The notes: generated from the letters alone by a model not told the origin. A DNA stretch of 64,000 bases from Sulfurovum indicum (GCF_014931715.1 NZ_CP063164.1:1116001-1180000); one strand, 5' to 3'; positions 2,393 to 13,003 are shown, counted from the first letter of the stretch. Made by a program: numbers and translations.

Positions 2393-2460
2393 CGAGGTGA
2401 CAATGACAATCCAATAAAACCTCTGCTATACTTTTCTTCTAATACACAAGGAGGGATAGT

Positions 2461-3228
2461 ATGCCACGTAAACCTCGTATTGAGTTAGCAGGGAAATACC
2501 ATATCATTAACAGAGGTGTAGAACAAAGAAAGGTCTTTGAGGAACCTGCTGACTATGAACAGTTCGAAGAGTTGATGTGTTTTTATGCTAAAAGCTTCGG
2601 TATTACTATTCATAACTATTGTCTTATGTCCAACCACTATCATCTACTTATAGAGATCTCCAGAGAGAATCTCTCAAAGTTCATGCGACAATTGAATATG
2701 AACTACTCTATCTACTTCAATAAAAAGAACAGAAGAACCGGACACTTATGGCAAGGAAGATACAAATCATGGTATGTGACTGATGAAGCTTACCTTTATA
2801 CTCTCATGTGCTACATAGAACAAAATCCCCTTAAAGCCAATATTGTTAAAACGTTAGAAGCATATCCTTACAGTAGCTATCATTACTTTTTAGAAAAAGA
2901 GATACCGGAATGTCTGAAAGATTCATGGGTAGTAGAGCAGTATCAGGATGACAAAGAAGCCATAGAAGCTTTTTTAACCAATCCAGTAGATACCTCACAA
3001 CTCCAAGAGCTTAAGAGAGCATCATCATTGATAGAGGCTCCCAATGTAGATAAAAGACCAAAAGAAGAGGATTTGAGAGAACTTTTTCAAAATATCACCG
3101 ATATAAAACAGCGAAACAAAGTAATTCTCCAAGCCATAGAACAAGGCTATTCTCAGCATATGATTGCTAAAGTATTGGGTATATCACAACAGGCTGTGTA
3201 TGGTGTAGTGAAGAGGAGTAGGCGATGA
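2461..3228 (+). CDS. REP-associated tyrosine transposase (Y1_Tnp), copy 1
   Basis: A 255-residue HUH single-strand transposase of the RAYT group. It starts MPRKPRIELAGKYHIINRG, shows the metal-binding HUH motif in SNHYHLLIE (about residue 60), and continues with the typical RRTGHLWQGRYKS and YIEQNPLKA blocks. The predicted catalytic tyrosine is in the CYIEQNP region. The C-terminal 60 residues form a helix-turn-helix-like segment (SQHMIAKVLGISQQAVYGVV). A good ribosome-binding site (AAGGAGGG) lies upstream. It is identical in protein sequence to copy 2 and remains intact, although its element's left end is split by IS110. Confidence 0.9.
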   Translation: MPRKPRIELAGKYHIINRGVEQRKVFEEPADYEQFEELMCFYAKSFGITIHNYCLMSNHYHLLIEISRENLSKFMRQLNMNYSIYFNKKNRRTGHLWQGRYKSWYVTDEAYLYTLMCYIEQNPLKANIVKTLEAYPYSSYHYFLEKEIPECLKDSWVVEQYQDDKEAIEAFLTNPVDTSQLQELKRASSLIEAPNVDKRPKEEDLRELFQNITDIKQRNKVILQAIEQGYSQHMIAKVLGISQQAVYGVVKRSRR

Positions 3229-3256
3229 GTTGTTATTGTCACCTGACCTCTCCCCC

Positions 3257-4117
3257 CAGGTCGATACCGTTTTGCAAGAGATGCGTTGCATACGAATGTC
3301 TGAATATATGTGAAGTCACCCGCTTGTGCACGCTTGCTTTTATTGCTGCCTGCTTAATATTCCGCCCCAATGTTTTTTCATGGATATGATGTCTGCGTAT
3401 CACTCCACTGCGAGGATCTTTAGCTACATTTCGCATAGGAAAGAGAAATTGCCATTTTGTTTCAAACTTTGCATTGGGATATTTACGCTCCAAAGAATAC
3501 GGCAGATACACAGAACCGAAACCGTCTGATACATCTTTAGCATGAAGCTGTTCTACATACTCCACTTGTGCCTTAAGCCTTTGCTTTAACACTTGCGGTA
3601 GCGGTACTGTTCTGTCTTTAAGGCTTTTACTATCCCAAATATAGACTTTGTCAAACCCGAAATCTACATCTTTTATGCGAAGGTTAAGGGCCTCTTGCAT
3701 ACGAAGTCCACAGCCATACATCACTTGAACAATAAGCTGATAAATTCCTGTAAGTTCTGCTATGACCTTTTGCACTTCATCTTTCGTCAATACCTGTGGA
3801 ATATGTTTTCTCTCTTGAGCTCTGAGAGCTTGTATATTCCAAGTGCTCATGTCTACACCCAGAACTTCTTTATAAAGAAACAAGATAGCGGCAAAGGCTT
3901 GGTTTTGCGTAGTAGGCGAAACTTTTTTCTGCACAGCAAGAAAAGTAAGAAACTGTTCTATCTCCTCTTTGCCCATTTCAATGGGATGCTTCTTATTATG
4001 AAAAAAGATGTAGTGTTTGATCCAATGAATATAGGTTCTCTCAGTTGAAAGACTATAATGCTTCAAACGGATCTTATCTCTTACCATATCAAGTAGTTTT
4101 CTCTTTGGTTTCTGCAT
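3257..4117 (-). pseudogene. intI: Integron integrase, C-terminally truncated
   Basis: A tyrosine recombinase with the features of IntI. The SAM-like N-terminal domain carries HYSLSTERTYIHWIKHYI. The first catalytic Arg lies in GCGLRMQEALNLR. The IntI-specific extra segment is present between motifs II and III (KYPNAKFETKWQFLFP, then DPRSGVIRRHHIHE), and the HxxR block is HIFRHSYATHLL. The reading frame then enters the RAYT right terminus after QNGIDL and stops at 3239, so about 50 residues are missing, including the last catalytic His and the nucleophilic Tyr. I start at ATG 4117, which has GGAGAG five bases upstream; an in-frame TTG lies at 4129. The protein should be catalytically dead, so the array can move only with another integrase. 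Confidence 0.92.
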
Positions 4118-4372
4118 TGTTCTCTCCAAAAATTAAAAAGACATAATGTCCGTTAATGCCCTATATCTCCATTTAACAGACAAAATGTCCTGTTAATGGC
4201 TTATTTCGGTCAAAAAGGACATAAACCATTTTTATAATTGTAAGATATTTTCAGAAAACAGGGCAAAAATATGACAATATGACATATTTTTGATTTTTAA
4301 CGGACATTTTTGGTGCGCTGTTAATCATGTGTTTTAAGGGTAAAATGCCTATAATGTTCCTTGAATAAATAG
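4118..4372. promoter_or_regulatory. intI/attI intergenic region with repeated GGACAT motifs and a cassette promoter
   Basis: This 255-bp region separates the leftward integrase from the rightward cassettes. AATGTCC-GTTAATG occurs at 4145-4158 and, with one extra base, at 4184-4198. The reverse-oriented GGACAT occurs at 4217-4222 and TTAACGGACATT at 4297-4308. They could be integrase-binding repeats of attI or operator sites. A TATAAT box at 4350-4355 points into the cassettes and is a candidate Pc promoter. The attI recombination point is inferred as G|TT at 4372-4373, where the first cassette begins. Confidence 0.6.
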
Positions 4373-4527
4373 TTGCCTCGGACGCTTCGCTTACCGAGGC
4401 AACGGGGGCGCGGGTTGAACACCCGCTGGTCGCCCGGCGCATCAGCGCCAGGCAACAAGCGGGAGGAACGATCTACCAAATCTGAAAACATGTTTTCATA
4501 TTCGGTAGCCGTTCACCCGCGCCCCCG
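4373..4527 (+). repeat. ORF-less structured integron cassette, copy A (155 bp)
   Basis: The cassette runs from the attI point (G|TT) to the next CCCCCG|TT and contains no credible ORF. It is GC-rich in an AT-rich island. It holds a 5' hairpin (TTGCCTCGG...CCGAGGCAA), then a long outer stem (AACGGGGGCGCGGG with CCCGCGCCCCCGTT). The outer stem encloses two further hairpins: CCCGCT...AGCGGG around a GGCGC/GCGCC core, and CTACC...GGTAG around GAAAACATGTTTTC. The outer stem with its CGTTA end is probably the attC, which would make this almost a pure attC cassette of three-way-junction shape. It is identical to copy B. Confidence 0.75.
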
Positions 4528-4551
4528 TTATGTTTACAAAGGATAAACAAA

Positions 4552-4983
4552 TTGAATTTAAAATGGATATACAATAGTGATAATATTAACTGGAATGAAT
4601 TATCAAATTTATATAAAATAGCACCACTTGGAGATAAGAAACCAAATGATTTAAAAACTGTATTTTCTAACAGTATGTTTAAATGTTTTGTCTATTCCGA
4701 TAACATACTCATTGGAGTTGGTAGAGCTTTAGCAGATGGAATTGATTGTTCATATATTTGTGATGTAGCAATACATCCCAAATATAAAGGTCAAGGTATT
4801 GGGAAAAAAATAGTTAATAAACTTATTGAGTTATCAAAAGGTCATAATAAAATTATCTTATATTCATATCCGGGAAAAGAACAGTTTTATTCTAAATTAG
4901 GATTTGATATGATGAATACTGCAATGGCTATATTTAAAAATAAAGAACAAGCAAGAGAGTGGCAACTTACAAGAAAAACATAA
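4552..4983 (+). CDS. GNAT-family N-acetyltransferase (cassette cargo)
   Basis: A 143-residue single-domain GNAT protein. The acetyl-CoA-binding motif A is clear (DVAIHPKYKGQGIGKKIV, about residues 75-92), followed by a C-terminal YSKLGFDMM motif typical of the fold's last strands. The start is TTG 4552, chosen because AAAGGA stands nine bases upstream and no ATG is in frame there. The substrate is unknown; the small-molecule acetyltransferase subgroup often carried by integrons is likely. The stop codon TAA is also the first three bases of the following attC. Confidence 0.88.
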   Translation: MNLKWIYNSDNINWNELSNLYKIAPLGDKKPNDLKTVFSNSMFKCFVYSDNILIGVGRALADGIDCSYICDVAIHPKYKGQGIGKKIVNKLIELSKGHNKIILYSYPGKEQFYSKLGFDMMNTAMAIFKNKEQAREWQLTRKT

Positions 4984-5047
4984 CAAATCATTGGAGAGAA
5001 ATATTTGACCCTAGCGGCTCAAATATTTCTCAACTCAGCCGTTGCCT
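4981..5047 (+). other. attC recombination site (67 bp)
   Basis: TAACAAATCATTGG opens the site and CAGCCGTTGCC closes it. The arms GAGAAATATTTGA and TCAAATATTTCTC are inverted repeats around a GC-rich apical loop (CCCTAGCGGC). The strongly conserved TAACAAATC entrance is shared with the attC at 11098. The closing box GTTGCCT departs from the usual GTTRRRY because the next cassette begins TTGCC. Confidence 0.85.
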
Positions 5048-5196
5048 CGGACGCTTCGCTTACCGAGGCAACGGGGGCGCGGGTTGAACACCCGCTGGTC
5101 GCCCGGCGCATCAGCGCCAGGCAACAAGCGGGAGGAACGATCTACCAAATCTGAAAACATGTTTTCATATTCGGTAGCCGTTCACCCGCGCCCCCG
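5042..5196 (+). repeat. ORF-less structured integron cassette, copy B (155 bp)
   Basis: This is base-for-base identical to copy A at 4373-4527 and has the same boundaries (preceded by G, ending CCCCCG before TT). The two copies flank the GNAT cassette. In this copy the 5' hairpin is lengthened by two flanking bases (CCGTTGCC/GGCAACGG). Exact identity of two non-coding GC-rich units suggests recent cassette duplication or repeated capture. Confidence 0.8.
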
Positions 5197-5352: not shown

Positions 5353-6227
5353 GGATCAAGGGGGTCAGGTGACAATGACAATCCAATAAAACCTCTGCTA
5401 TACTTTTCTTCTAATACACAAGGAGGGATAGTATGCCACGTAAACCTCGTATTGAGTTAGCAGGGAAATACCATATCATTAACAGAGGTGTAGAACAAAG
5501 AAAGGTCTTTGAGGAACCTGCTGACTATGAACAGTTCGAAGAGTTGATGTGTTTTTATGCTAAAAGCTTCGGTATTACTATTCATAACTATTGTCTTATG
5601 TCCAACCACTATCATCTACTTATAGAGATCTCCAGAGAGAATCTCTCAAAGTTCATGCGACAATTGAATATGAACTACTCTATCTACTTCAATAAAAAGA
5701 ACAGAAGAACCGGACACTTATGGCAAGGAAGATACAAATCATGGTATGTGACTGATGAAGCTTACCTTTATACTCTCATGTGCTACATAGAACAAAATCC
5801 CCTTAAAGCCAATATTGTTAAAACGTTAGAAGCATATCCTTACAGTAGCTATCATTACTTTTTAGAAAAAGAGATACCGGAATGTCTGAAAGATTCATGG
5901 GTAGTAGAGCAGTATCAGGATGACAAAGAAGCCATAGAAGCTTTTTTAACCAATCCAGTAGATACCTCACAACTCCAAGAGCTTAAGAGAGCATCATCAT
6001 TGATAGAGGCTCCCAATGTAGATAAAAGACCAAAAGAAGAGGATTTGAGAGAACTTTTTCAAAATATCACCGATATAAAACAGCGAAACAAAGTAATTCT
6101 CCAAGCCATAGAACAAGGCTATTCTCAGCATATGATTGCTAAAGTATTGGGTATATCACAACAGGCTGTGTATGGTGTAGTGAAGAGGAGTAGGCGATGA
6201 GTTGTTATTGTCACCTGACCTCTCCCC
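5353..6227 (+). mobile_element. RAYT (Y1 transposase) element, copy 2, intact
   Basis: An 875-bp element with left terminus GGATCAAGGGGGTCAGGTGA and right terminus TCACCTGACCTCTCCCC. It serves as the uninterrupted reference for copy 1; base 2396 corresponds to 5368. It interrupts a lipoprotein gene on the left. On the right it abuts what looks like the last bases of an attC (CCCCGTTATC, 6235-6244). Confidence 0.85.
5433..6200 (+). CDS. REP-associated tyrosine transposase (Y1_Tnp), copy 2
   Basis: Its 255-residue protein is identical to the one at 2461-3228, with the same HUH motif (SNHYHLLIE), GHLWQGRYKS block and C-terminal helix-turn-helix-like tail. The coding region is intact and preceded by the same AAGGAGGG ribosome-binding site. 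Two identical copies 2.97 kb apart in direct orientation provide a substrate for homologous deletion or duplication of the cassettes between them. Confidence 0.9.
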   Translation: MPRKPRIELAGKYHIINRGVEQRKVFEEPADYEQFEELMCFYAKSFGITIHNYCLMSNHYHLLIEISRENLSKFMRQLNMNYSIYFNKKNRRTGHLWQGRYKSWYVTDEAYLYTLMCYIEQNPLKANIVKTLEAYPYSSYHYFLEKEIPECLKDSWVVEQYQDDKEAIEAFLTNPVDTSQLQELKRASSLIEAPNVDKRPKEEDLRELFQNITDIKQRNKVILQAIEQGYSQHMIAKVLGISQQAVYGVVKRSRR

Positions 6228-6234
6228 GTTTCTC

Positions 6235-6244
6235 CCCGTTATCT
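6235..6244 (+). other. Possible attC 3' end at the left border of the large cassette
   Basis: CCCCGTTATC has the same form as the CCCCCGTTAT ends of the ORF-less cassettes and lies 15 bases before the glycosyltransferase start codon. If real, the G|TT at 6238-6239 is the start of the large cassette, and the rest of this attC was removed by the RAYT element. No pairing arm survives, so support is limited. Confidence 0.4.
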
Positions 6245-6258
6245 GTAAGAAGGACAAA

Positions 6259-7086
6259 ATGAATTTCTCTGTAATCATAGCCACCTCACAAAAAAGAACA
6301 GATTGGTTGATTAATCGAAGTTTGCTTTCTGTTTACAATCAAGATGGAATTAACAAATCGGAATGGAGTGTAATAGTAGTTGACGATAATAAAGACAAGT
6401 CTGAGTTTGTTAAAGTCCAAAAACAAGTTGACTTTCTAAGAAACAAATTAAATCTTAATCCTACTGATTTTCCAACAACTGTAATAAAGAACAGACGAAC
6501 CCAATTTATGTCTGGAACTGGTGCATGGAATACAGGCATTTTTGAAGCAAACTATATCTCCCCTAATGGTTTTATAAGTATTTTGGATGATGATGACGAG
6601 TATTTACCTAATCATTTGTCAGAATGTGTTTCAGCAATAAAGTCTGACTCTGTCGCAGTGTTTCAGCGATTGATTTGGTATAATAATGAAAAATCAACTA
6701 TGAATGTAGATTTGACAAAAGAATGTTTGACCGCTGAAAATTTCTTTATCGGTAACCCAGGTGTTCAGGGAAGTAATATGTTTTTTAAATCACAAAACTT
6801 TGTTGATATTGGTGGTTTTGATGAGGCATTACCAAATACAACTGATAGAGACTTAATGATTCGCTTCCTTTTGAAGAATGAATTGACTAAAATTGAAGTT
6901 ATCGAAAAAATCGGAGTAATTCACTATAATCATAAAAGACAAAAAGTGAACAATGACATCCCAAGAAAACAACAGGGCTTGGATTTATTCTATAAGAAAT
7001 ACAAACACTATTTTTCAGAAGAAGCCTATTTAAAATCATTATCGAGAGCAAAGAAATGTTTCAATTATACTCCACCGAACAGATAG
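6259..7086 (+). CDS. Family 2 glycosyltransferase
   Basis: A 275-residue GT-A fold glycosyltransferase. The N-terminus MNFSVIIATSQKRTDWLINR is the usual first strand. VVDDN marks the nucleotide-binding Asp, and ILDDDDEYL (about residue 110) is the metal-binding DxD. GFDEALPNTTDRDLMIRF matches the acceptor-side ED-like motif. AGAAGGA before ATG 6259 decides the start. The end overlaps the next gene by 31 bp, so the two are translated together. The sugar and acceptor cannot be deduced. GC content is low, as for the rest of the cassette. Confidence 0.88.
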   Translation: MNFSVIIATSQKRTDWLINRSLLSVYNQDGINKSEWSVIVVDDNKDKSEFVKVQKQVDFLRNKLNLNPTDFPTTVIKNRRTQFMSGTGAWNTGIFEANYISPNGFISILDDDDEYLPNHLSECVSAIKSDSVAVFQRLIWYNNEKSTMNVDLTKECLTAENFFIGNPGVQGSNMFFKSQNFVDIGGFDEALPNTTDRDLMIRFLLKNELTKIEVIEKIGVIHYNHKRQKVNNDIPRKQQGLDLFYKKYKHYFSEEAYLKSLSRAKKCFNYTPPNR

Positions 7087-10000
7087 TAATTTGTATGCCC
7101 TTAAAAAATTCAGAAAAGACTGTGAAAAAAGCGGTCATTTCTGTGTTAAAACAAACTAATACAAAACGTGAAATTATTTTATTAATAGGAAACGATAACT
7201 CAACTGACAATTCAGAAACGATACTAAAAGAAATTGCTTCTAAAAATCCTAATATTGTTTTACTTAATGTGAATTTTGGCAAAACATATTTAGTCAGAAA
7301 TTATTTGAACAAATATGCACGAATAAACTATCCTAATTGCATACTAATTGGCAGACTTGATGCTGATGATGTGATTTACAATGATAAAACAATTAGTCAG
7401 ATTGAAAAATTGTATGATGAAACAAATTTTGATGTTTTAATATGCGGTAATAAGCAGGTTAAAAACGGTGTTGTTTTAGAGTGGGAAAATAAACCAAGTA
7501 AAAAACTATTACAAGAGGAATATCTTTTACGACAACTATTAGAAATAACAGAAGGGAATCCCAAAGCAGAACTTCCTTCCTGTAATACTTTCATAAAACC
7601 ATTTATAAAGACAGAGTATCCAAAAAAATTAAGTGCAGAAGACCATTGGTTTACAGTATTGCTTCTTCTTCAAAAAGAAAATCTAAATATTCAAATTGAT
7701 CAAAGTTTGATTTATTCTATTTACTCGTTAGATGGACATACTACCACCAAAAATAAAAAAGCAAATCTCTTTAAAGAAAGCAGAAAGGAACTTTATGAGT
7801 TTTTTAAACATCATAAAAGAATAAAAAAAGCAAAAGATATCCTGTTAAAACAAGGTATTAAATCTGTTGAATATCTGGGAGTCGGGCATGAAGGAGTGGT
7901 TTTTACTGACACAAAAAGTGTATATAAGGTTCTTCTGCCAATAAACAACAATACATTTGATTTTGAAATTGCTTACAGAAGAAAATCCTTTTTTGTAAAT
8001 CTATCTAAGGACTTAAAACATTTGTATTGCATTGAGCTAATAAAAACAAAAGAAACCATCATTATAAAATATCCTTTTGAAAAAGGAGAAAAATGCAGCT
8101 TTTATACAGAATACGAAGCTATTAGCATACTAACTGAGCTTTGGCAACAAAAAATAATTATTTTAGACTCTAAACCAGAGAACTGTATTCGAGTCGGAGG
8201 AGTCATAAAAATCATTGATTTAGATGGTAAAGAGTATAATGATAATTTGTTTTTAAATATGTGTGCAAGAATGTATTTGTATGCTAATTATTATAGTAAA
8301 TATACATACGCAGAGTTTCAAAAACTAAAACGAAGTGCTATCAATAATTTTGAACTACCAGAGCTGAAAGGATTGCGTGTTTTTGTAAATCGAGTTTTTA
8401 CTAACATCATTTTTGAAGAATCAAAGCACTTTACCCTTTTTGAAAACTCTGTAAAAAATAAAATTCAGGAACAAATCAACATCAATGACAATTTGGAGAA
8501 CATATTCTTCTCTAAAATCAAAGACAATAAATATTTAACAGGAATCTATTTTGATGGTTATAAATTGAATAGTGATAATTATTTTGAGCCTATAAATTTA
8601 CGAGTAGGCTATAAAGAAATTACACCTATTGATAAAAAAGTGACACTGCTTATAAAAACCTGCCCCCAAGATACTGCAACTATCGAAGAAAATATAAAAC
8701 ATATTGTAAAGCAGTTATCCTCTCCAAATTCATTTTATGAAGTAGTGGTTTCCATTGATACAAAAGAAGAGAATTATCTTCGAGAATTTAATAGTAAAGG
8801 AACACTGAAAGCGCTACTTGATAAAGTCGAGAAGCTCAAAGAAAATAATGTTATTGACAGATATATCATTTTCGACAAATCCAAAACTAAAGAATTAAAT
8901 AAACGATGGTTTGACATAGATACAGCAGAATCTCATACAATTAGCAATGCCCCTTTAGCCCCTCAGCTATATGCTTTTGAACAATGTAAAGGAGATTATA
9001 TTCTGCAAATGGACTCTGATGTATTGATTGGTCGAAAAGACTATCAACATTCATTTCTTGCCGATATGTTATCTGAGTTTGATAAAAATGAAAATGTTAT
9101 TTCGGTAGGTTTTAATATTCCAAATAAAGAAACTAACGACTATTTTGGATTTGAAAATGGCGGATTTGTTCCAGAGGTTCGGATGGGATTATTGCATAAA
9201 GAAAGAATATATAATTTGCTTCCCTTGCCAAACTCTGTCGGAAAGAATGGAAAACTCAAATTAACGTGGCAACGATCATTATTGGAAAAACAAAAAGTAA
9301 GCAAAAAAGTTTCCATTCGAGGTGGAGACCATCGCAGTTTTTATATTCATCCACAAAATTATCGAAAACAAGAACCGTATGCATGGCTAACTATTTTAGA
9401 TGCAGTAGAACAAAATATTTTACCTAATTCTCAATATGGAAAGTTTGATGTAGAAGGTTCATTGTATGATTGGTCAATTCCCAAAAGGAATGAAAAAATC
9501 ATAGTGGTTTCGTGTTTTAGAAATGTTAGTATTGATCGATTTCTAAGAATGTGGTGTTCCTTAATGGCTCAAAATACAAGTGATTTTGGAATTATTCTTT
9601 TAGATGATAACTCTGATAACGGACTCCCTTATTTTATTGATAGTTTAATCAAACCTTATTTACATAAGGTTACTTTCATAAAAAAAAGAAACCGCTCTAC
9701 ACGCATGGAAAATGTGTACACTGCGATTCATTATTATGTGTCGAACCCTGACTCAATAATTGTAATGCTAGATGGTGATGACGCTTTGATAGGAAATAAG
9801 GTATTAACTACAATTGCTGAAAAATATGATGCCTACAATGCAGATGTTTCAGTAGGTCGCTTTCATCAAACTTACAGGATACAGCCACATTATCGTTATC
9901 CTGTGAACTTTGCAAACCCAAGAAAAGCAGGAGGTAATGTTTGGCAACATTTGAAAACATTCAAGAAATATCTTTTTGATTCAATACCACTTCCTTATTT

Positions 10001-11003
10001 CAAACACAAAAGCGAATCAGTAAAACTTTATAAAAACAAATGGCTACAAACTTGTGATGATTTTGCTTTTATGGTTCCAATTGTAGAAATGGCTCAACAA
10101 CCAATTCAGTTAGATGATATTAATTATTATTACGAAAGGGATTATGAAAAAAGAAATGATGATAGGGACATAAAAGAACAATGTATTGCGGAGATATTAA
10201 CTAACCCGCCTTTATCTAAAATGGATGTATTCAAAGAAAGGAAAACTTTTCTTCCCAATATAAATAAAGTTGAAATAGACATTACATATGAGTGCAATCT
10301 TAAGTGTTTAGGATGCAACCGTTCATGCACACAAGCACCTACAACCGAATCTGTTGAGTTTTCAGATATTAAGCAATTTGTAGAAGAATCTGTAATTACT
10401 AATAAAAAATGGGAACTAATAAATATTCTTGGTGGTGAACCAACTTTACATCCAGAATTCAAAAAGATTGTAGCATATATTCATGATGAATATATCATAA
10501 AGCAATCTCCTAAAACAATATTACAAGTTGTCTCTAACGGATATGATGAAAAATCACGAAATTTATGTGAAGATATTAGAGCAAAATACAAAAATGTTCG
10601 CATTGATTATGGTTCCTATAAAACAGATAGAGTGGTGGAGTATTTTTCACCATTTAATGATGCACCGATTGATGATGATAAATTCAAGGAGGCAGACTTT
10701 AAAAAAGGTTGTTGGGTTACTAGTTATTGTGGTATTGGCTTAAATAAAAATGGGTATTATGCCTGTGCAGTTGCAGGTGGAATTGATAGAATTTTCAATA
10801 AAAATACAGCTATCCCAAAATTGACTGAAATAACTAATGATAGATTAAAACAGCAATTAGAGGAATTTTGCAGATACTGTGGTAACTTTAAAGCATACGA
10901 AGATAATTTTGGCGATTTTATTCCAAGAGTAGAAAAAGAACCTTTTAGAAATGAGATTTCAGAATCGTGGAAAAGATTATATGAAGAATACAGAACACAA
11001 TAA
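7056..11003 (+). CDS. Giant fusion: GT2 - kinase-like - GT2 - GT2 - radical SAM
   Basis: 1315 residues with five recognisable modules. Residues 8-240 form a GT2 with DAD (102-104). Residues 272-395 resemble a protein/aminoglycoside-kinase fold: glycine loop GVGHEG (275-280), VYKV Lys (291), LDSKPEN (370-376) in place of the catalytic loop, and DLDG (388-391) in place of DFG. Residues 525-805 form a second GT2 with DSD (653-655). Residues 812-1030 form a third with DGDD (906-909). Residues 1070-1300 form a radical-SAM domain with the CxxxCxxC cluster motif (C1080, C1084, C1087), GGEPTL, and further cysteines near the C-terminus like a SPASM/auxiliary cluster. I know of no characterised enzyme with this order. 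A multi-step sugar polymer or glycopeptide modifier is a guess. It overlaps both neighbouring genes. Confidence 0.85.
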   Translation: MFQLYSTEQIVICMPLKNSEKTVKKAVISVLKQTNTKREIILLIGNDNSTDNSETILKEIASKNPNIVLLNVNFGKTYLVRNYLNKYARINYPNCILIGRLDADDVIYNDKTISQIEKLYDETNFDVLICGNKQVKNGVVLEWENKPSKKLLQEEYLLRQLLEITEGNPKAELPSCNTFIKPFIKTEYPKKLSAEDHWFTVLLLLQKENLNIQIDQSLIYSIYSLDGHTTTKNKKANLFKESRKELYEFFKHHKRIKKAKDILLKQGIKSVEYLGVGHEGVVFTDTKSVYKVLLPINNNTFDFEIAYRRKSFFVNLSKDLKHLYCIELIKTKETIIIKYPFEKGEKCSFYTEYEAISILTELWQQKIIILDSKPENCIRVGGVIKIIDLDGKEYNDNLFLNMCARMYLYANYYSKYTYAEFQKLKRSAINNFELPELKGLRVFVNRVFTNIIFEESKHFTLFENSVKNKIQEQININDNLENIFFSKIKDNKYLTGIYFDGYKLNSDNYFEPINLRVGYKEITPIDKKVTLLIKTCPQDTATIEENIKHIVKQLSSPNSFYEVVVSIDTKEENYLREFNSKGTLKALLDKVEKLKENNVIDRYIIFDKSKTKELNKRWFDIDTAESHTISNAPLAPQLYAFEQCKGDYILQMDSDVLIGRKDYQHSFLADMLSEFDKNENVISVGFNIPNKETNDYFGFENGGFVPEVRMGLLHKERIYNLLPLPNSVGKNGKLKLTWQRSLLEKQKVSKKVSIRGGDHRSFYIHPQNYRKQEPYAWLTILDAVEQNILPNSQYGKFDVEGSLYDWSIPKRNEKIIVVSCFRNVSIDRFLRMWCSLMAQNTSDFGIILLDDNSDNGLPYFIDSLIKPYLHKVTFIKKRNRSTRMENVYTAIHYYVSNPDSIIVMLDGDDALIGNKVLTTIAEKYDAYNADVSVGRFHQTYRIQPHYRYPVNFANPRKAGGNVWQHLKTFKKYLFDSIPLPYFKHKSESVKLYKNKWLQTCDDFAFMVPIVEMAQQPIQLDDINYYYERDYEKRNDDRDIKEQCIAEILTNPPLSKMDVFKERKTFLPNINKVEIDITYECNLKCLGCNRSCTQAPTTESVEFSDIKQFVEESVITNKKWELINILGGEPTLHPEFKKIVAYIHDEYIIKQSPKTILQVVSNGYDEKSRNLCEDIRAKYKNVRIDYGSYKTDRVVEYFSPFNDAPIDDDKFKEADFKKGCWVTSYCGIGLNKNGYYACAVAGGIDRIFNKNTAIPKLTEITNDRLKQQLEEFCRYCGNFKAYEDNFGDFIPRVEKEPFRNEISESWKRLYEEYRTQ

Positions 11004-11118
11004 GACGACAATTATACTCTTGAGTGGAGGAATCGACTCTGCGACTTTACTTGCAAAACTATCAAGTGAAATTATTAACTTGTTGCAAGGAAAACAGATA
11101 ACAAATCATTGCACTTGA
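10981..11118 (+). pseudogene. Truncated PP-loop ATPase (QueC/asparagine-synthase-like) N-terminus
   Basis: A 45-residue ORF starts inside the end of the fusion gene (overlap 23 bp). It contains the PP-loop signature LLSGGIDSATLLAKL, typical of ATP-pyrophosphatases such as QueC, NadE or AsnB. Full-length members exceed 200 residues. Here the frame runs into the attC site, whose TAACAAATC provides the last codons, and stops at 11118. It is therefore a gene stump cut where the cassette's attC begins. Confidence 0.65.
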
Positions 11119-11165
11119 CATTTTTCCGCTACGCTCCAAAATGCAGGTGAACTCAACCGTTAGGC
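11098..11165 (+). other. attC recombination site (68 bp)
   Basis: A clean attC running from TAACAAATCATTGCAC to CTCAACCGTTAGGC, with both outer boxes canonical (GTTAGGC fits GTTRRRY). Inner arms TTGCACTTGACATTTT and AAAATGCAGGTGAACTCAA pair imperfectly with the expected unpaired bases. The apical loop is TCCGCTACGC. It closes the large cassette and sets its right border at 11159|11160. Confidence 0.9.
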
Positions 11166-11177
11166 GAACATTAAACT

Positions 11178-11633
11178 ATGGAGGTATATCAAGTGGAAAA
11201 TAATTTATCATTATCAGATTCAGAAATAAAAAGATTAGTCCAAGAAAAAGTTGAGAGTTATAAAAATTTTAGTAATTTAGAACAATACGCAATATTTATG
11301 GGAAAAGCTCAGATATTGGAGTTTGGATTAAAGGGTTTACTCTCTATAAAGTATGAATTTTCATTTGAGTCGATAGAAAAATGGACATTAGGACGAGTCA
11401 AAAATGAGCTTGAGAAAAAGGGGCTACGTCAGGACTTTATAACGCTCCTTAGTAGTGTAGTAACTCATCGAAATCACATTGCACATGAGTTTTTAGTTAA
11501 TAATTCAATAGTGAAAAGTTTAGGTGATTTCAGCGATAAAAAACTATATGGTGACTTATTTTGTGCGATATACGAGCTTGAACAAATAATCATAATTTAC
11601 GATTGGAATGAAGAAAACAATGGCTGGGGATAA
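11178..11633 (+). CDS. HEPN-like protein (cassette cargo)
   Basis: A 151-residue all-helical protein with RNHIAHEFL at about residue 96. This fits the Rx4-6H signature of HEPN ribonuclease domains, sitting in a VTHRNHIAH context as in HEPN proteins of toxin or defence systems. No MNT nucleotidyltransferase partner is visible beside it. The start ATG 11178 follows the attC end by 12 bases and has GGAGGT further downstream, so an internal start cannot be excluded. Function in defence or toxicity is inference from the motif and context. Confidence 0.6.
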   Translation: MEVYQVENNLSLSDSEIKRLVQEKVESYKNFSNLEQYAIFMGKAQILEFGLKGLLSIKYEFSFESIEKWTLGRVKNELEKKGLRQDFITLLSSVVTHRNHIAHEFLVNNSIVKSLGDFSDKKLYGDLFCAIYELEQIIIIYDWNEENNGWG

Positions 11634-12378: not shown

Positions 12379-12654
12379 ATGCACATTGTAAATGATATAA
12401 AACCTGTTACCTATCTCAAAAGCAAAACAGCTGATGTTCTAAAATATATCAATGAAACCCATAGACCTATGATAATCACACAAAACGGTGAGGCTAAAGC
12501 TGTAATACAAGACCCAAAAAGCTATGAAGATATGAAAAATGCTCTTGCTATCATGAAGCTTCTTTCATTTGCAGAGGAAGATACCAGGAATGGAAATTTG
12601 CATTCGGAAGAGGATGTTTTTAATGCTGTTGAAGAGCTCTTAGAAAATGAGTAA
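12379..12654 (+). CDS. Type II antitoxin, Phd/YefM family
   Basis: A 91-residue protein. The N-terminal Phd fold is recognisable by VTYLKSKTADVLKYINE, then MIITQNGEAKAVIQDPKSYE, the standard DNA-binding half. The acidic C-terminal tail is the expected toxin-neutralising region. AAGGAG precedes ATG 12379. The gene overlaps the toxin by 8 bp. The pair is expected to autoregulate. Such cassettes are common in large integron arrays, where they are thought to stabilise the array. Confidence 0.9.
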   Translation: MHIVNDIKPVTYLKSKTADVLKYINETHRPMIITQNGEAKAVIQDPKSYEDMKNALAIMKLLSFAEEDTRNGNLHSEEDVFNAVEELLENE

Positions 12655-13003
12655 AACCTACAAAATTCAGTGGACTTCAAATGCAAAAGAAGACCTTTTG
12701 AATATTGTTGATTACATTAAAAAAGATAACAAAAATGCTGCAAGAAAAGTGTATGGACAAATAAGAGAAAAAGCACAATCTAGCAATTTGTTTCCATTAC
12801 AAGGTAGAATAGTACCTGAACTTCAAAAAGAAGGTATCACTATTTACAGAGAACTCATTGTTCAACCTTGGAGAATTATGTATAAAATTGAAAATGATAC
12901 TGTTTATATTATGGCTATTTTTGACTCAAGACAAAATGTAGAAGAGCTGTTATTGCAAAAACTGTTGAAAGGGCATATACTAACAAATCAGAGCAATAGT
13001 TAA
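12647..13003 (+). CDS. Type II toxin, ParE/RelE superfamily
   Basis: A 118-residue basic protein with the ParE/RelE core: IQWTSNAKEDLLNIVDYI helix pair, PLQGRIVPEL, then YRELIVQPWRIMYKIENDTVYIMAIFDSRQN. The last strand plus DSRQN is typical. Whether it attacks gyrase (ParE) or ribosome-bound mRNA (RelE) cannot be decided. The C-terminus (ILTNQSNS) is encoded by TAACAAATC, the opening box of an attC, and may be cassette-derived. Confidence 0.9.
   Translation: MSKTYKIQWTSNAKEDLLNIVDYIKKDNKNAARKVYGQIREKAQSSNLFPLQGRIVPELQKEGITIYRELIVQPWRIMYKIENDTVYIMAIFDSRQNVEELLLQKLLKGHILTNQSNS

Follow-up and report, generated by a model that had tools for sequence, protein, structure and literature searches.

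An integron cassette of Sulfurovum indicum carries a conserved set of glycosyltransferase, kinase-like and radical-SAM domains that may assemble an oxidised glycan

Introduction

Can a single integron cassette hold most of a multi-enzyme carbohydrate module, and what would such a module make? The question is raised by a 4.9-kb cassette in Sulfurovum indicum (NZ_CP063164.1:1116001-1180000; "the window" denotes this whole 64,000-nucleotide stretch), whose neighbours in the same array measure 0.15-0.5 kb. A preliminary description saw in it a protein joining glycosyltransferase, kinase-like and radical-SAM domains, and proposed a self-contained pathway for a modified glycan or a glycosylated peptide. 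We find that this set of four GT2, kinase-like and radical-SAM enzymes is undescribed, real and conserved. The open-access literature held nothing relevant on a fused glycosyltransferase-kinase-radical-SAM enzyme, an absence that is weak evidence, and because all of its domains fall into known superfamilies we place the set within bacterial glycan assembly rather than in a categorically new system.

Results

Array cassettes start directly after the G of a G|TT junction, and the R'' box towards their end repeats that start in reverse-complemented form. The first base of the cassette is the T after G6238 (G|TTATCTGT) and its last is G11159 (CAACCG|TTAGGCG), and the 9-nt start GTTATCTGT is found again, reverse-complemented, as ACAGATAAC at 11094, giving the R''/R' match; start/R'' signatures were also found at 4372, 4527 and 5041. 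Joined as in the excised circle, the bottom strand of attC folded into a single hairpin whose outer R''/R' stem measures 10 bp (z -2.9; 3/200 shuffles), a property of the circular form only, the integrated attC alone folding no better than shuffles (z 0.65). The array adjoins an integrase gene, albeit a truncated one, and the same unit occurs elsewhere with the same edge, in the relative L018. The segment 6239-11159 is an integron cassette, with limits that agree to the base with those first proposed, and its capacity for excision and integration is predicted from these sequence features. The array contains the following features:

3239-4129, minus strand: integron integrase intI, truncated (TIGR02249 positions 1-279 of 315; 362.8 bits, cut-off 265)
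4373-4527, plus strand: gene-less mini-cassette, copy 1 (155 bp, nearly all hairpin; fold z -11)
4528-5041, plus strand: GNAT acetyltransferase cassette (514 bp)
5042-5196, plus strand: gene-less mini-cassette, copy 2, identical to copy 1
5367-6227, plus strand: REP-associated tyrosine transposase element, copy 2, in the cassette directly upstream of the 4.9-kb one
6239-11159, plus strand: the whole 4,921-bp integron gene cassette, delimited by the R''/start match, the junctions, the circular attC fold and the L018 edge
11094-11165, plus strand: attC site at the 3' edge of the cassette, placed by the junction positions and the circular fold

The intI reading frame breaks off at TIGR02249 position 279, ahead of the catalytic Tyr region, and its end is replaced by another REP-associated tyrosine transposase element at 2395-3255 (861 bp), identical to the copy at 5367-6227. 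The 4.9-kb cassette sits behind this truncated integrase, and its expression is only putative.

Within the cassette, two genes overlap by 31 bp, and the end of the second is in turn overlapped by a gene stump, an arrangement that the preliminary description had right:

6259-7086, plus strand: GT2a gene, 275 aa, GT2-family glycosyltransferase with a DDDD metal motif, starting at the ATG at 6259 (PF00535 43.5 bits, cut-off 23.3)
7056-11003, plus strand: 1315-aa protein GT2b-kinase-GT2c-GT2d-radical SAM, supported by the ORF, Pfam, relatives and dN/dS
7056-7781, plus strand: GT2b domain, residues 1-242, motif DADD (best PF00535 stretch 12-148)
7782-8495, plus strand: protein-kinase-like domain, about residues 243-480, with LGxGxEGVVF, VYK, LDSKPEN and DLDG (conserved residues, AlphaFold model)
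8496-9464, plus strand: linker and GT2c, GT-A fold, about residues 481-803, motif DSD (model fold matches)
9465-10214, plus strand: GT2d domain, residues 804-1053, motif DGDD (one of three PF00535 stretches; alignment)
10215-11000, plus strand: radical SAM domain, residues 1054-1315, with CxxxCxxC, GGEP and a twitch-like C-x5-C-x11-C ... C-x2-C (PF04055)
10981-11118, plus strand: PP-loop gene stump of 45 codons (TTIILLSGGIDSATLLAKL), ending inside attC

Pfam found three GT2 stretches and Radical_SAM (residues 1076-1168) in the 1315-aa protein and gave no kinase match; the kinase is clear in the predicted structure, where the radical-SAM, kinase-like and GT2c folds were all recognised. The domain list proposed for this protein is thereby confirmed, and the cassette as a whole encodes four GT2 domains, since the fourth, GT2a, sits in the separate upstream gene. 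GT2 assignments rest on PF00535 scores above the gathering score together with an acidic metal motif, and the GT2c part of the kinase-GT2c model (pLDDT 78, pTM 0.58; shallow alignments lie behind this model and the radical-SAM model alike) has a GT-A fold, matching BcsA (Z 13.8), PcManGT (13.0) and SpsA (11.5). In PF00535 score, GT-A fold and metal motifs the domains resemble the CAZy GT2 enzymes WcaA, SpsA, PgaC and BcsA, from which the cassette differs in having four GT2 domains, three of them on one chain with a kinase and a radical-SAM domain. No NCBIfam equivalog was reached, the cassette proteins scoring far under every cut-off. The PP-loop stump has QueC as its best Pfam match (PF06508; 15.5 bits, cut-off 22), with 45 residues left.

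We found homologues that keep the domain order, a check that the preliminary description had proposed, although cut differently. L018 has the same two genes, with 91% protein identity and 93.3% DNA identity over 4.8 kb, whereas in L019, an Opitutales metagenome-assembled genome, a single 1902-aa protein (54%) reads GT2a-epimerase-GT2b-kinase-GT2c-GT2d-radical SAM. Three genomes of the same order (L099-L101) encode a GT2a-GT2b fusion, then kinase-GT2c-GT2d-radical SAM, then a sugar-nucleotide epimerase-family gene, and the radical-SAM domain is a separate gene in L003 (Salinivibrio kushneri, where its product has 293 aa), L102 and L020. A GT2a homologue, fused or separate, is present in every relative, and sugar-nucleotide epimerases recur as extra genes, fused or adjacent. 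The five parts are repeatedly kept together in differently fused forms, distant bacteria included, and the occurrence of the same fusion in separate assemblies rules out an assembly artefact. Nor do the modules always occur apart, the other outcome that would have undone the original proposal: the radical-SAM domain was found in 6 of 397 genomes of the phylum, and GT2c in five of those six and in no other, never apart from it; in the sixth, the contig stops directly after GT2b. Elsewhere the module was rare, being present in 1/150, 1/286 and 1/276 genomes, each single positive being the query's own genome; the surveyed groups are samples that do not include gammaproteobacteria, such that this range is a lower bound.

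All of these parts look maintained by purifying selection, as judged from substitution patterns, the kinase-like domain included: between the window and L018, dN/dS was 0.18 for the large ORF, 0.18 for GT2a and 0.12-0.31 for individual domains, and among L099-L101 it was 0.075-0.079. No full-length PP-loop partner, which the preliminary description had proposed to look for, was found in any relative. The one PP-loop protein that came into question, near L100 (14464-15453), is ThiI/NFACT-R-like, and we took its position as chance because it is not adjacent in the sister genomes.

The kinase part of the AlphaFold model matched PKR, Rio2, DAPK and Wee1, all at Z of about 12. The Gly-rich loop, Lys, Asn and metal (DFG-equivalent) Asp are conserved throughout the kinase members, and the catalytic Asp is kept in the fused clade and replaced by Asn in L003 and L102, such that the domain has the fold and residues of a protein-kinase-like enzyme. 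The preliminary description had called its catalytic motifs changed, which is not clearly the case in the fused clade, where catalytic Asp, Asn and DFG-equivalent Asp are all present. Four further genomes from the order of L099-L101 (L119-L122) carry a related kinase (24-30% identity), and in the two whose sequence extends to the next gene (L119, L120) that gene is a GT2a homologue (33-39%); they differ in having neither a radical-SAM domain nor GT2c, the kinase being joined instead to a SLOG cluster-4 domain, with a methyltransferase-like part at the C-terminus of three of the four. Directly upstream in L120 is a gene of the UDP-sugar dehydrogenase family. A more distant kin on a Pseudoalteromonas plasmid has the order GT2a-X-kinase-GT, and because of it and L119-L122 we regard GT2a plus kinase as a recurrent pair, of which the radical-SAM-GT2c-GT2d set is one version. 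WaaP, KdkA and WbdD likewise join a protein-kinase-like fold to glycan building, yet none of their Pfam models matches the cassette protein, and WbdD is a kinase-methyltransferase without a radical-SAM domain.

The kinase-like domain could instead be a pseudokinase, an acceptor-binding scaffold that places the glycosyltransferases and phosphorylates nothing. The His of HRD is absent in all members, which, with the Asp-to-Asn change in L003 and L102, would fit such a role; catalysis is favoured by the residues that the fused clade retains and by the SLOG-kinase kin, which have a D-x-K-P-x-N motif of similar form. We consider a pseudokinase somewhat unlikely, and it would leave the rest of our preferred explanation, set out below, in place.

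The radical-SAM model (11 sequences, pLDDT 77, pTM 0.81) found its best fold matches in BtrN (4m7s; Z 10.7, rmsd 3.9, 178 aligned) and SpeY, also SpcY (7wzv; Z 10.6, rmsd 3.6, 195 aligned), in a tie with the peptide cyclase SuiB (Z 10.1). The CxxxCxxC motif of the radical cluster and the GGEP SAM motif are invariant in 12 sequences, and so are C170, C176, C188, C223 and C226 of the domain, phage relatives included. The spacings C170-x17-C188 and C223-x2-C226 agree with what we take to be the auxiliary-cluster ligands of BtrN, and BtrN and SpeY are, to our knowledge, stand-alone aminoglycoside-pathway enzymes with neither GT2 nor kinase fusion. As in these two enzymes, the fold combines a CxxxCxxC and GGEP core with a small C-terminal auxiliary-cluster region that has a later CxxC; in contrast, identity is 15-16%, which together with a fold match does not fix a reaction. 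Four Cys would be available for one auxiliary cluster, as judged from conservation and spacing, the choice of the four that bind being our inference. The auxiliary cluster of BtrN is ligated by four Cys, and the enzyme carries out a two-electron oxidation of 2-deoxy-scyllo-inosamine (PMC9012708). By its modelled fold, the domain is most likely built like the twitch radical-SAM dehydrogenases and, by analogy with BtrN, would oxidise a sugar.

Discussion

We interpret the cassette as a glycan-assembly module that moves horizontally and would build and modify a surface or secreted carbohydrate; the product would be phosphorylated and radically oxidised and would probably join a surface polysaccharide, a reading to which we give a probability of roughly one half. 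The four GT-A (GT2) domains would add sugars in sequence onto one acceptor, and the kinase-like domain would phosphorylate that glycan or one of its sugars. The radical-SAM domain would form a 5'-deoxyadenosyl radical and remove a hydrogen from a sugar carbon, the second electron passing to the auxiliary Fe-S cluster and a keto (or otherwise oxidised) sugar being left, while the fusion could retain the unfinished glycan on a single protein. Radical-SAM sugar oxidation is known from antibiotic pathways, and the fusion with glycosyltransferases and a kinase would, if this is true, bring it into the assembly of bacterial glycans. The cassette also demonstrates that 4.9 kb of integron DNA, mobilised as one unit, suffice for the greater part of a multi-enzyme carbohydrate module.

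Sugar-nucleotide enzymes are missing from the window copy, genes for a transporter, a polymerase or a ligase are missing from the cassette, and of the PP-loop gene just a stump is left, which contradicts the idea of a self-contained pathway. Lacking a transporter or ligase, the module is more likely to lengthen or modify a glycan of its host than to produce a new one unaided. It would draw on the host's sugar nucleotides and on its machinery for export and ligation, of the O-antigen-ligase type, and the host genome has O-antigen-ligase-family genes (PF04932). The modified glycan of the original proposal gains support from L019, whose neighbours include a UDP-glucose 6-dehydrogenase, a group-1 glycosyltransferase and a heptose-type nucleotidyltransferase; association with polysaccharide clusters was seen there and does not extend to L003 and L099-L102, whose neighbours are mostly not polysaccharide genes.

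In the Sulfurovum host the product would probably be displayed at the surface, by analogy with the chromosomal-integron cassettes of Vibrio rotiferianus, deletions of which alter surface polysaccharide (PMC3590141; PMC3856429). In strain DAT722, as may hold here, integron cassettes are the elements whose loss changes surface carbohydrate (PMC3590141), whereas the effect there came from large deletions of many cassettes.

A second reading takes the product to be a small-molecule natural product, an aminoglycoside- or nucleoside-like glycoside for which the glycosyltransferases build an oligosaccharide, the radical-SAM domain oxidises it and the kinase phosphorylates it, perhaps for self-protection. 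The pathways of BtrN and SpeY, the presence of BlsE and DesII in the same fold list, and the RibA-NADAR, asparagine-synthase and arylamine N-acetyltransferase genes that follow the Pseudoalteromonas plasmid kin all point this way. However, no true relative was noticed to have an aminotransferase, cyclitol synthase or exporter beside it, aminoglycoside pathways do not usually employ glycosyltransferases of the GT2 type, and the surroundings of L019 are UDP-sugar and heptose-type genes, such that we think this reading unlikely.

An anti-phage or conflict system, in which the radical-SAM domain makes a modified nucleotide in the manner of viperin or the glycosyltransferases modify phage DNA or receptors, would suit the fact that integron cassettes often bear defence genes, the SLOG fusions of the kin kinases, the radical-SAM relatives in large viral contigs and a PADLOC pVip match (E 3.9e-8). 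That match, however, covers the radical-SAM core only (74 residues), and the prokaryotic viperin model NF038283 gave 27.2 bits against a cut-off of 180, on which we reject a viperin-type enzyme; the fold ranking supports this, viperin (Z 7.3) and MoaA (Z 6.8) lying well below BtrN and SpeY. We hold a defence function to be very unlikely, while an altered surface glycan that masks receptors would fit the glycan-assembly module as well. A phage origin was rejected separately: the 1315-aa protein had no match in 50,697 phage records, and the viral contigs hold lone radical-SAM relatives, with no kinase-GT2c.

There is only a slim chance of a glycopeptide or RiPP-type system, with the radical-SAM domain acting on a peptide that the glycosyltransferases glycosylate, for although its sequence profile puts the RiPP enzymes CteB and YydG first and its fold list includes CteB, SkfB and SuiB, sugar twitch dehydrogenases rank at or above the peptide enzymes by fold, the recurrent extra genes are sugar-nucleotide epimerases, no RRE domain was seen, and the glycosylated peptide first suggested is without support because no candidate precursor peptide was noticed in the cassette.

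Returning to the glycan-assembly module, we tentatively picture a new class of mobile carbohydrate assembly line, in which a radical-SAM sugar oxidase, a carbohydrate kinase and the four glycosyltransferases, repeatedly fused and split, would work as one unit, install an oxidised, phosphorylated sugar motif in bacterial glycans and spread as one integron cassette. Natural fusions (Rosetta-stone evidence) tell which enzymes cooperate, and the product can therefore be searched for directly in cultured relatives.

The radical-SAM tree separates a fused clade (100/99) from a split group whose support is incomplete (94/93). Although L020 is of the window's genus, the two fall in different groups of this tree; this placement and the copy in Opitutales speak for horizontal transfer. 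Homology with L018 begins exactly at base 6239, indicating that the unit moved as a cassette; the L018 3' edge is lost after 11034. The L018 contig (5.2 kb) was binned as Crocinitomicaceae, and the module was found in no other genome of 150 from the order of that bin; L018 may be misbinned, and its 169 bp upstream of the module gave no more than short, weak matches in the window's genus.

Mobile elements and further cassettes of the array

The integron region and its cassette array contain the following additional features:

2395-3255 and 5367-6227, two identical copies of an 861-bp REP-associated tyrosine transposase element
4373-4527 and 5042-5196, mutually identical 155-bp cassettes without a gene
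11178-11633, gene in the cassette after the main one, for a 151-aa protein that Pfam matches weakly as HEPN-like (E 0.05)
12379-13003, farther along the array, toxin-antitoxin-like gene pair of Phd/RelE type, judged by eye

The integron integrase gene is cut off early by the transposase element copy at 2395-3255, and the other copy is hosted by a small lipoprotein-like cassette, whose attC recombination site appears damaged. Nearly the entire sequence of the gene-less cassettes forms a single long branched hairpin (fold z -11).

Relatives of the cassette domains at other loci

Loci with relatives of the radical-SAM or kinase domains showed the following:

L003:14894-15664, gene for a 256-aa protein without an assigned family, which in Salinivibrio separates the glycosyltransferase gene from the radical-SAM gene
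L028:6648-9093, large viral contig, three tandem radical-SAM genes of the same family as that of the cassette
L027:7968-9390, 330-kb viral contig, 40%-identical radical-SAM gene overlapping a short gene
L106:5744-12266, Pseudoalteromonas plasmid cluster encoding a GT2a-X-kinase-GT protein, RibA-NADAR, an asparagine synthase-like protein and an arylamine N-acetyltransferase

Searches of the 256-aa Salinivibrio protein against Pfam and NCBIfam returned nothing significant; the short gene on the 330-kb viral contig gave a weak glycosyltransferase-like match. The plasmid gene group looks like a small biosynthetic cluster.

At four loci (L119-L122), a kinase of the main-cassette type is fused to a SLOG cluster-4 domain, with a methyltransferase-like part also fused in three of the four proteins. 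To our knowledge, this SLOG cluster-4-kinase(-methyltransferase-like) architecture has not been described. Beside the fusion gene, a homologue of the GT2a glycosyltransferase is the next gene at L119 and L120.
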